A stretch of 64,000 nucleotides of DNA from Desulfovibrionaceae bacterium (GTDB lineage: Bacteria; Desulfobacterota; Desulfovibrionia; Desulfovibrionales; Desulfovibrionaceae), in the NCBI GenBank assembly GCA_016932995.1, contig JAFGBU010000006.1, forward strand, positions 1-64,000, given 5' to 3'. The position numbers and the translations under genes are program-made. The number at the start of each line of letters is the position of its first letter. The stretch's first letter is position 1. The notes under the pieces are model-generated. The model had not been told where the DNA came from and searched no databases. It saw only the letters and a list, made by a program, of their open reading frames with translations. Positions 7,354 to 10,262 of the stretch are shown here, piece after piece.

Positions 7354-8272
7354 AGCTGTCCAGACAGGCCCGGCCCGTGCCCACCAGGTCGTAGCCCGTG
7401 CCGTGGTCCGGCGAGGTGCGCGGACAGGGCAGGCCCAGGGTCACGTTGACCGCCTCGCTGAAGTGCAGGAGCTTGAGCGGTCCCAGGCCCTGGTCGTGGT
7501 ACATGGCCAGGACCGCGGCGTAGTCGCCCCGGGCCGCGAAATAAAAGACCGTGTCCGCGGCCAGGGGCCCGACAACGTCCAGGCCCTCGGACTTGGCCTG
7601 GTCCACGGCCGGGCCGATGACCTCGATCTCCTCCCGGCCGATGCGGCCGGACTCCCCGGCGTGCGGGTTCAGGCCGCAGACCGCCAGCGGACCGGTGTGG
7701 CCCAGGCCGCGCACAAAGTCCGAGGTCAGCCGCAGGCAGCGCAGGATGCGCTCGCGGGTGATCAGGCCGGGCACGTCCTTGAGCGGCGGATGGGTGGTGA
7801 CCAGGCTGACCCTGAGCCTGGGCCCGCACAGGTGCATGCACACGTTGTCCCGGCCCACGCCCAGGCCCTGGGCCAGGAACTCGGTGTGCCCGGGAAAGTC
7901 AAAGCCCGCGGCCTGGAGCATGGCCTTGTTCAGGGGGCAGGTCACCAGGCCCTGGCACACGCCGGAGCCAAGCAGCGAAATTGCGGCCTCAAGGCTCAGG
8001 CCCGCGGCCAGCCCGCCCTCGGGCGAGGCCAGGCCGGGCCGGAACACAAGCCCTGAAAGGCCCGGGGGCTCAAAGGCGTAGACCCCGGCGGGCAGATAGG
8101 CGATCTCCCCGGGCTCGGCCAGGGCCCGGACCCGCAGGCCGGCCAGCCCGGACAGGGGCCCGAGGATGAGAAGCCTCTCGTTCGGCCCGGGCCGGGCCTT
8201 TGAAAGGGTCCGGACCACGAGCTCCGGGCCCAGCCCGGCCGGGTCGCCCAGGGTGACGCAGAGGGTCCTCAC
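7301..8272 (-). CDS. pdxA: 4-hydroxythreonine-4-phosphate dehydrogenase
   Basis: A 323-residue protein beginning RTLCVTLGDPAGLGPELV, the conserved PdxA N-terminus. It oxidises and decarboxylates 4-phosphohydroxy-L-threonine in the DXP-dependent pyridoxal phosphate pathway. The family's metal-binding histidines are present, including GHTEF, LCGLNPHAGE and AMYHDQGL. The GTG start at 8272 overlaps the Nudix stop by 4 nt, so the two genes form one minus-strand unit. Confidence 0.94.
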   Translation of the reverse strand: MRTLCVTLGDPAGLGPELVVRTLSKARPGPNERLLILGPLSGLAGLRVRALAEPGEIAYLPAGVYAFEPPGLSGLVFRPGLASPEGGLAAGLSLEAAISLLGSGVCQGLVTCPLNKAMLQAAGFDFPGHTEFLAQGLGVGRDNVCMHLCGPRLRVSLVTTHPPLKDVPGLITRERILRCLRLTSDFVRGLGHTGPLAVCGLNPHAGESGRIGREEIEVIGPAVDQAKSEGLDVVGPLAADTVFYFAARGDYAAVLAMYHDQGLGPLKLLHFSEAVNVTLGLPCPRTSPDHGTGYDLVGTGRACLDSFKAALDLARRMVAGTGR

Positions 8273-8739
8273 CCGGCCTCCGAAGGGGGGTTCAAGACCT
8301 CGATCCGGCGCCTGAAGTCAGCCACTATCCGGCCGTGGTCAAAGGCCAGGTCCGGCAGCCTGTCGAGGCCGAAGAACCGGGCCCCGGCCGCGTCGTCCCC
8401 GGCCCTCAGGGCCTTGGGGTCCACGGCCTGGGCAATGTAGACCACGCTTATGGTGTGCATCCTGGGGTCGCGCGCGGGATCGGAATAGACCCCGAGCAGC
8501 CCGGTCAGGACCACATCGAGCCCGGTCTCCTCAAGGGCCTCGCGCACCGCGGCCCGCTCGCAGGTCTCGCCGTGGTCCACGAACCCGCCGGGCAGGGCCC
8601 AGCCGGGCGGCGGGTTCCTGCGCTCCACCAGGACAATCCCGAGCCCGGGCTCGAAGACCACCACGTCCACGGTGGGAAACGGGTTGTCATAGACCTCGAC
8701 AGCCGCCCCGCAGGCCGGACAGCTCTTCATCCTGCGCAC
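8269..8739 (-). CDS. Nudix hydrolase with N-terminal zinc-ribbon-like cysteines
   Basis: A 156-residue protein whose Nudix box GGFVDHGETCERAAVREALEETGL fits the GX5EX7REUXEEXGU pattern, binding Mg2+ to hydrolyse a nucleoside diphosphate linked to another group. A CPAC pair near the N-terminus is a partial zinc ribbon. The substrate is unknown; ADP-ribose or NADH are plausible. GTG at 8739 has a GGAGG-type site just upstream; ATG at 8730 is possible but the site would then be far away. Translationally coupled to pdxA. Confidence 0.85.
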   Translation of the reverse strand: MRRMKSCPACGAAVEVYDNPFPTVDVVVFEPGLGIVLVERRNPPPGWALPGGFVDHGETCERAAVREALEETGLDVVLTGLLGVYSDPARDPRMHTISVVYIAQAVDPKALRAGDDAAGARFFGLDRLPDLAFDHGRIVADFRRRIEVLNPPSEAG

Positions 8740-8820: not shown

Positions 8821-8850
8821 GGCCCGGGGTAAAATTTATTATACCCGGCC
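8821..8850 (+). repeat. Hairpin with CGGGGTAAAA side, first of three related
   Basis: GGCC-GGG-TA pairs with TACCCGGCC around an AT-rich loop, allowing single-base bulges. CGGGGTAAAA in this orientation also occurs on the minus strand in the hairpins at 9562-9594 and 9612-9644. It is upstream of the Nudix gene on the opposite strand to transcription. The relation is weaker than between the other two copies. Confidence 0.4.
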
Positions 8851-8957
8851 AATAAACGGCCCGCGGCCGGCCAAGGCCTGATCGAGACCTGCGGTCCGGC
8901 CCGGCGGCCGGGGCCTGAAAAGCCCCGCGGCCCGGGCGCGCAGGCAGGTCCTTGAAA

Positions 8958-9017
8958 CGAAAGCAGCCTCCCGCGGGACCGCCCCGGGGAAGCTGACTTC
9001 GGCAAAAGAAGGAAGGT
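8958..9017 (+). repeat. Repeated hairpin plus A/G tail, copy 1
   Basis: Arms CGAAAGCAGC and GCTGACTTCG pair at 8 of 10 positions around a core with CTCC, GCGGGACCG and CCCGGGGAA. It is followed by GCAAAAGAAGGAAGGT at 9002-9017. Copy 2 at 9372-9444 has the same core plan and the identical 16-nt tail but different arm sequences. Could be a repetitive extragenic palindrome or a structured RNA. Confidence 0.6.
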
Positions 9018-9371
9018 TCTGTGTCGTCTCTTGCTTTACCTCCTGCATTTTTGAGGCCAAAAACAAAGATTTCCCGGCCTTAAAAATAAATACAGCTATT
9101 TTAAATACTTGCCTCGACAGGCCAGGACCGGGCCATGGGTCCGGAGGCCGTGGGGCGGTACAAGGTTTTTGACCCGCCTCCCGGGGCCGGGCGCGGGCCG
9201 CCTCCCAGGGCCGGGGCCGGTATGGGATACCGGGCCGGGTCTGGGGGGCCCGGCCCCGGGGCTCCAGTCTGGTGGCCCGGCCAACAGGCAAGAGGCCCGG
9301 GCCCAAAGGCCGCCTTTGGCCCGGCGGGCCGATTCGCGGGCTCTGCGGGCGATGTCGGCCCTTGGCCGAAA

Positions 9372-9444
9372 ACGAATCAGGCCTCCTGCGGGACCGTCCC
9401 GAGGAAGCCTGATTCGTGCTTCACGCATGCAAAAGAAGGAAGGT
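9372..9444 (+). repeat. Repeated hairpin plus A/G tail, copy 2
   Basis: ACGAATCAGGC (9372-9382) and GCCTGATTCGT (9407-9417) are a perfect 11-bp stem enclosing a second, nearly perfect stem (TCCT-CGGG with CCCG-AGGA) and a short loop. After an 11-nt linker comes GCAAAAGAAGGAAGGT (9429-9444), identical to copy 1. The stem is far stronger than chance. Confidence 0.65.
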
Positions 9445-9561
9445 GCCCTGGTTATTGCATCCGGCATGCCAAAGTTTGAGCAATGGTCAATGCAACTTTT
9501 TATAAAACTATTTCAAAATGTTACCTGTTTAAAACAACGACCGGGGCCAGGCCCTGGCCGG

Positions 9562-9594
9562 GGATTCGGGTTCAAGTTTTTTTACCCCGAATCC
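9562..9594 (-). repeat. Hairpin with conserved T-rich loop, copy A
   Basis: GGATTCGGG and CCCGAATCC form a 9-bp stem. The loop and stem tops read GGTTCAA, a run of Ts, then ACCCCG; 19 of 21 positions match the hairpin at 9612-9644 although the outer arms differ. Confidence 0.5.
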
Positions 9595-9611: not shown

Positions 9612-9644
9612 GGCCCGGGCGGTTCAACTATTTTTACCCCGGCC
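9612..9644 (-). repeat. Hairpin with conserved T-rich loop, copy B, overlapping the tsaC stop
   Basis: GGCCCGGG pairs with CCCCGGCC with one mismatch. The loop is nearly identical to that of copy A. The tsaC stop codon lies inside the loop, so the element also encodes the last residues of TsaC. On the minus strand it lacks a classic terminator T-run after the stem. Confidence 0.5.
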
Positions 9645-10262
9645 GAGGGGCTCGACCAGGTAGCCCTTGTCCCTTAAGGCCGAGGGCGGCACGGCCCCGG
9701 CCCGGACCAGGAAAACGGCCCGGCCCTTGCGGCCGGGCATGGGGCTGACCACCGTGGACGGCGGCCCGCCCCCGGGCCAGGGCCGGTCGAGCAGCGCGCC
9801 GTCCGCCTGGGCCAGGATGTCCGGGTCCAGCTCCCCGGGCGTGGCCGCCGGGGCACGTCCGCTCCTGTTGGCGCTGGTGGCCACCAGGGCGGCGTCGGCC
9901 AGGCGGCAGATCTCGGCCGCCGAGGCGTGCGGGGTCCAGCGCACCGAGGTCCGGCCCAAATCGTCCTTGAGCGCGTCCGGAAGCTCCGGCCTGGCCCGGA
10001 CCAGCACGGACAAGGGCCCGGGCCAGAAGTCAGCGGCCAGGTCCAGGACCACCTGGGGGACCTCGGCCGCGATCCTGTCCAGCCAGTCCAGGCCGGCGAT
10101 GATCACCGGCAGGGGCTTGTCCTTCAAGCGGCCCTTGATCCGGGCCACGCGCGCCGCGGCCCAGGCGTCAAAGGCGTCGCAGCCCAGGGCGTACAGGGTC
10201 TCGGTGGGGTACACGACCACCCCGCCCGAGCTGATTATTTCGGATATCCGGAGAGCATCCAT
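9624..10262 (-). CDS. tsaC: L-threonylcarbamoyladenylate synthase (Sua5/YrdC/YciO family)
   Basis: A 212-residue YrdC-domain protein that makes threonylcarbamoyl-AMP from threonine, bicarbonate and ATP for the t6A37 tRNA modification. The N-terminal GGVVVYPTETLYALGCDA, the KxR/KxK basic set (IKGRLKDKPLPV) and TSANRSG are the conserved active-site elements. There is no Sua5 C-terminal domain, hence the TsaC name. The last codons run into a repeated hairpin. Confidence 0.9.
   Translation of the reverse strand: MDALRISEIISSGGVVVYPTETLYALGCDAFDAWAAARVARIKGRLKDKPLPVIIAGLDWLDRIAAEVPQVVLDLAADFWPGPLSVLVRARPELPDALKDDLGRTSVRWTPHASAAEICRLADAALVATSANRSGRAPAATPGELDPDILAQADGALLDRPWPGGGPPSTVVSPMPGRKGRAVFLVRAGAVPPSALRDKGYLVEPLGRGKNS

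Follow-up and report, generated by a model that had tools for sequence, protein, structure and literature searches.

In the analyzed stretch of Desulfovibrionaceae DNA (64,000 nucleotides, herein referred to as the window), the intergenic region between the sua5 and NUDIX genes probably contains a tandem pair of small-RNA (sRNA) genes on the minus strand, being two copies of one gene. On the sequence and comparative data, this pair quite likely represents a family of Hfq-free, base-pairing sRNAs controlled by sigma-54 and an enhancer-binding protein (EBP). In the proposed mechanism, the EBP would bind palindromes upstream of the -24 box, at a distance of 115 nt and, for copy 2, also of 167 nt, and would trigger transcription of both sRNAs from the minus strand by the sigma-54 RNA polymerase. 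The resulting transcript of ~65-78 nt would have an unstructured 5' end that is CU-rich and resembles an anti-Shine-Dalgarno sequence; an intrinsic terminator hairpin would come after it. Most likely, this 5' end would pair, independently of Hfq, with ribosome-binding sites that are purine-rich and belong to trans-encoded mRNAs, and it would thereby repress translation. Sequence and comparative analysis support the strand, promoter, enhancer sites, hairpin covariation, synteny, and lack of detectable Hfq; transcription, EBP action, pairing mechanism, and targets are what we infer.

Both hairpins (plus-strand positions 8958-9001 and 9372-9417) and both copies of the 16-nt segment GCAAAAGAAGGAAGGT (9002-9017 and 9429-9444) were confirmed in the window. 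The preliminary description had presented the segment as a tail adjoining each hairpin, which holds for copy 1, but in copy 2 the two elements are separated by an 11-nt linker (9418-9428). The hairpin core pattern, with up to three mismatches allowed, has 2 matches per 64 kb versus 0.00 on average in shuffled sequences, and the 16-nt segment, with up to two mismatches, has 2 matches versus 0.05. In the whole genome (2,483,598 bases in 49 contigs), exactly two copies each of the core and the segment were found; the genome-wide count proposed in the preliminary description thus recovered both known copies of the segment but no further ones. Both copies lie within a ~880-bp region flanked by two minus-strand genes in conserved synteny, namely sua5/yrdC (9624..10262; PF01300, E 1.8e-40) and the NUDIX hydrolase gene (8269..8739; PF00293, E 1.1e-24). 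A search of public genomes with the plus-strand hairpin core yielded 13 exact matches. Only one of them, in a Desulfovibrio metagenome-assembled genome (L017), was real; the others lacked the segment and the arms.

The strand of the predicted RNA was assessed from several features. The fold z-scores of copies 1 and 2 are -2.1 and -3.8 for the plus strand and -2.2 and -4.2 for the minus strand. The A.C mismatches found in the arms on the plus strand (two of three in copy 1 and the single one in copy 2) mostly correspond to G.U pairs on the minus strand, so the latter appears to be the functional RNA strand. The third copy, in L017, forms a perfect hairpin and has the same neighbors in the same order; with it as the reference, the window copies have four imperfect arm positions, of which three read A.C on the plus strand but G.U on the minus strand. 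Of 90 relatives, 59 have the more stable fold on the sense strand and 21 on the antisense strand (p 4e-7), and the number of T residues at the 3' edge of the hairpin is 4.2 for the sense strand versus 2.3 (p 2e-11). The preliminary description had considered a plus-strand RNA with a purine-rich, GGA-containing tail to which a CsrA-like protein or ribosomes could bind. The plus strand does carry GGAAGG, but the asymmetries in folding and in the U run, the G.U versus A.C changes, and the minus-strand orientation of the promoter and enhancers make such an RNA extremely improbable. Read from the minus strand, the RNA would lack a GGA-rich tail at its 3' end that CsrA or ribosomes could recognize and would instead have a pyrimidine-rich 5' end, itself able to pair with ribosome-binding sites.

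Read on the minus strand, each copy starts with ACCUUCCUUCUUUUGC, continues with the hairpin, and ends with UUU(U). ACCUUCCUUCUUUUGC is the anti-Shine-Dalgarno-like, CU-rich 5' end of the predicted RNA, and the hairpin, together with the U run, is a predicted intrinsic terminator. The CU-rich segment lies outside the hairpin, i.e., in a single-stranded region, in nearly all members. Copy 2 is complete, having a promoter (9472-9456), enhancer sites at -115 and -167, and a predicted RNA of ~76 nt (9369..9444, minus strand; Infernal score 85.4 bits). Its +1 position, counted from the sigma-54 spacing, is at ~9444, where the 16-nt segment begins, and the UUUU end is at 9372-9369. The 5' segment of this copy (9429..9444) is almost identical in relatives, and the terminator hairpin (9373..9417; fold z -4.2) shows covariation. 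For copy 1, the predicted transcript of ~78 nt (8955..9032, minus strand; 93.2 bits) has a promoter of its own and starts 15 nt before the segment, which gives an extra leader of this length. Its anti-Shine-Dalgarno-like segment (9002..9017) is identical to that of copy 2, and its terminator hairpin (8958..9001) contains two G.U pairs and one mismatch. Both the promoter and the terminator are weak in copy 1. With a divergent promoter, only one enhancer site, and a short U run (UUU), this copy looks partly degenerate and may be a weakened duplicate. The hairpin of copy 1 is nearly identical to that of L017, which belongs to a different genus, although the promoter of copy 1 has drifted; for copy 2 the opposite was observed.

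Upstream of copy 2, a predicted sigma-54 promoter, TTGGCATGCCGGATGCA (9456..9472, minus strand), matches the -24/-12 elements and is also matched by a model described below (R2). The promoter predicted for copy 1, TTGGCCTCAAAAATGCA (9044..9060, minus strand), is divergent and retains GG and GC at the correct spacing; it lies 115 nt from its upstream activating sequence (UAS), as in the relatives. The pattern TTGGCNCG-N4-TTGCT was found directly upstream of the segment, at fixed spacing, in nearly every member, and a TTGGC-type -24/-12 element precedes the segment by a fixed 9-14 nt in nearly all members. This family promoter matches the published Desulfovibrio sigma-54 motif, tGGcacg/tTGCt (PMC4641369). 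The +1 position counted from the -12 element coincides with the start of YAYCCUUC (YA|YCCUUC). RpoN is encoded in the source genome. As judged from sequence, the predicted sRNA has the features of the sigma-54 class: -24 GG/-12 GC promoter spacing, enhancer sites, and RpoN.

The palindrome GGTAmAAAATTTTkTACC is common to the upstream regions, usually as two sites ~52 or 41 bp apart. It scored above 8 bits in all 90 upstream regions versus 1.8% of shuffled sequences, with a matrix trained on the same regions that it scored, which had themselves been selected for having a promoter. Support for the enhancer sites was therefore taken from their fixed phasing and their uniqueness in the source genome. 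The distances of the sites from the -24 box are 94/105/115/125 and 147/157/168/178 nt, i.e., they change in helically phased steps of ~10.5 bp, and in the 2.48-Mb source genome the pattern, with up to one mismatch, is confined to the sua5-NUDIX intergenic region. Copy 2 has one site 115 nt upstream of its promoter (9568..9587; 24.7 bits, exact pattern match) and a second one 167 nt upstream (9620..9639; 21.3 bits, one mismatch), 52 bp or five helical turns from the first. The site of copy 1 (9156..9175; 18.1 bits) is at -115. A further UAS-like palindrome (8827..8846; 22.0 bits, exact pattern match) is located 107 nt before the NUDIX start and is followed by no sigma-54 promoter. Similar sites precede the NUDIX gene in several relatives; the TATAAT inside this palindrome could alternatively be a -10 box. 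The enhancer motif is also matched by a conserved palindrome, GGCCAGTTCAAAAAATTGAACCAGG, that lies downstream of the RNA, apparently inside a convergent heptosyltransferase gene (L083, L084, L086, L154-L157, and others).

Because the palindrome is common to the upstream regions, phased, and unique to this locus in the source genome, one shared EBP is implied. The source genome has 17 strong EBP matches. An EBP gene was found near the RNA in only one of ~75 loci (L102), at a distance of 2.5 kb. In six loci (L091, L092, L103, L117, L177, and L178), a gene for a receiver/histidine-kinase hybrid is located directly between Sua5 and the RNA. This hybrid histidine kinase may sense the signal of the activator; its comparison with the EBPs of the source genome revealed generic domain similarity and no specific link.

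Two models were used for analysis of the family distribution. Of the 288 genomes of the family, 69 contain matches to the covariance model R1, which was built from three copies (the two window copies and L017); these 69 genomes belong to 25 of 44 genera and often contain tandem copies. Some of the weaker R1 matches were false and were removed after inspection; those in L063, L067, L069, L072, L073, and L076, having neither promoter nor segment, were dropped. The model R2 comprises only the promoter and the 5' segment and is blind to the hairpin. Members detected with R2 were also found in at least two further families of the order (f5 and f6), and a hairpin follows in all 40 inspected matches. 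Each of the 90 distinct RNAs examined has a hairpin with a z-score below -2. In an alignment of 49 matches, 96.7% of the cells are paired, and changes on both sides were found at 18 of the 20 pairs. The covariation score is 0.52 versus 0.20 for shuffled and at most 0.14 for slid controls; as the alignment was fitted to the model, it favors covariation somewhat, which should be read against the slid controls. The proposal of a structured RNA with preserved pairing is thus strongly supported across the 49 relatives. The preliminary description had also called for a covariance-model search and had counted a lack of further copies and of compensatory changes against its proposal; the search found further copies in the 69 genomes as well as covariation among the relatives, and so did not refute the RNA proposal. 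The predicted family is widespread in Desulfovibrio-like sulfate reducers. Extra tandem RNA copies with promoter and segment, beyond the lists from the model searches, were observed in L175, L183, and L189, and a second CU-rich motif (CCTCC) lies between the first motif and the hairpin in L166-L168 and L171.

In most loci, Sua5 is followed by one to three RNAs and then by NUDIX and glycogen genes (GlgA and GlgB). The Sua5-RNA adjacency is kept in the family f5, where the downstream genes are different, and in some genera further copies are located elsewhere, beside SecA, GltX, or SerS. This distribution bears on two other explanations. The idea of mobile palindromes, raised in the preliminary description, would here mean a REP/RAYT-like family or a miniature element; it would agree with two near copies having inverted-repeat arms and with the few copies found dispersed within one genus (e.g., in G260 and G259). 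It is barely plausible given that the source genome has two adjacent copies rather than many dispersed ones, that each copy carries a promoter and enhancer sites of its own, and that the same syntenic site is occupied across genera and families. The hairpins could also be ordinary intrinsic terminators, of sua5 and of another transcript, with the common segment being incidental: they have a U run on the sua5/NUDIX strand, and their stems diverge while pairing is kept, as is usual for terminators. This is very unlikely, as it would account neither for the conservation of the 15-nt segment nor for the fixed spacing of the sigma-54 promoter or the phasing of the enhancer sites, and several genomes have copies that do not lie near sua5.

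A search of 348 genomes of the order detected no Hfq but did find the positive controls, so any pairing by the predicted sRNAs would be Hfq-free. In several lineages the exposed 5' end is CCUUCCUCC, close to the 16S anti-Shine-Dalgarno sequence. A search for long complements before ATG in 12 genomes yielded one convincing match to a ribosome-binding site, GCAAAGAAGGAAAGAAGGAAGGAGGG, belonging to an autotransporter beta-domain (beta-barrel) gene of the relative G194, with a predicted duplex energy of -21.6 kcal/mol. This candidate target was not found to be conserved. Nor was a conserved target set found: the only place where an extended complement preceding ATG recurs among relatives is the lepA coding sequence, and other matches are scattered. 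The evidence for pairing thus consists of the 5' sequence and a single candidate target. Under another explanation, the sigma-54-dependent sRNA is real and acts, instead of pairing with mRNA, as a decoy titrating a CU-preferring RNA-binding protein or ribosomes. A CU-rich 5' end that is very uniform across genera, one to three tandem copies as in sponge RNAs, undetected Hfq, and the lack of a conserved target with extended complement would all fit a decoy. Most members, however, have one CU segment per RNA rather than an array of sites, this segment is exactly at the 5' end and resembles Shine-Dalgarno complements, and the candidate pairing in G194 is strong; we regard the decoy as unlikely, though worth considering. 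Returning to base pairing, a broader proposal has somewhat less than even chances in our estimation. These order-wide minimal sRNAs, composed of a CU-rich 5' end and a terminator, would mimic the anti-Shine-Dalgarno end of 16S rRNA without detectable Hfq, and in the source genome a dedicated sigma-54 activator would have almost no regulon beyond these sRNAs, tandem-amplified to tune dose.

Little work has been done on post-transcriptional control in sulfate-reducing bacteria, and no Hfq was detected in the order studied here. An sRNA family that is widespread and syntenic, and whose promoter, enhancer sites, and seed are clear, would provide a testable system for Hfq-free riboregulation and for identification of the signal and the activator behind it. 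If the pairing is true, ribosome-binding sites of the GAAGGAAG type are those expected to respond to the sRNA.

Qrr RNAs are short trans-acting sRNAs having a sigma-54 promoter and an upstream enhancer-binding protein, and many species have multiple copies. The Qrr of Vibrio, controlled by sigma-54 and LuxO, are the closest precedent for the promoter logic, but they differ from the family found here in sequence, structure, and synteny, and work on them is tied to Hfq (PMC10162802), undetected in this order. For pairing, the closest precedent is LhrC1-5 of Listeria (PMC5880928), a multi-copy family whose CU-rich segments pair with Shine-Dalgarno regions rich in AG. LhrC contains three CU-rich regions, and its promoter is controlled in another way, whereas the family described here usually has a sigma-54 promoter and a single CU segment, placed at the very 5' end. 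CrcZ/CrcY of Pseudomonas and Azotobacter (CbrB, sigma-54) are likewise sigma-54-dependent and often paired (PMC6292655), but CrcZ is a far longer RNA with repeats of an A-rich Hfq/Crc site. The Rfam 15 covariance models gave no match to the sRNA, either at the gathering score or at a relaxed E-value, in the window and 20 relatives (tRNAs only), and a 2024 survey of ncRNAs in a related species reported Rfam families only (PMC11124144). The family appears to be undescribed. In the same order, four ncRNAs of D. vulgaris Hildenborough, including Dv_sRNA2, are likewise controlled by sigma-54 and EBPs; their function is unknown, and expression was confirmed for one of them (PMC4641369, PMC3333781). 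Unlike the family described here, they are listed in the main texts by neighboring gene, without sequence, structure, or mechanism (PMC4641369, PMC3333781), and because these texts give no sequences, the two groups may overlap. The family is absent from Rfam and may supply a sequence and structure for the sigma-54 ncRNA class of D. vulgaris.
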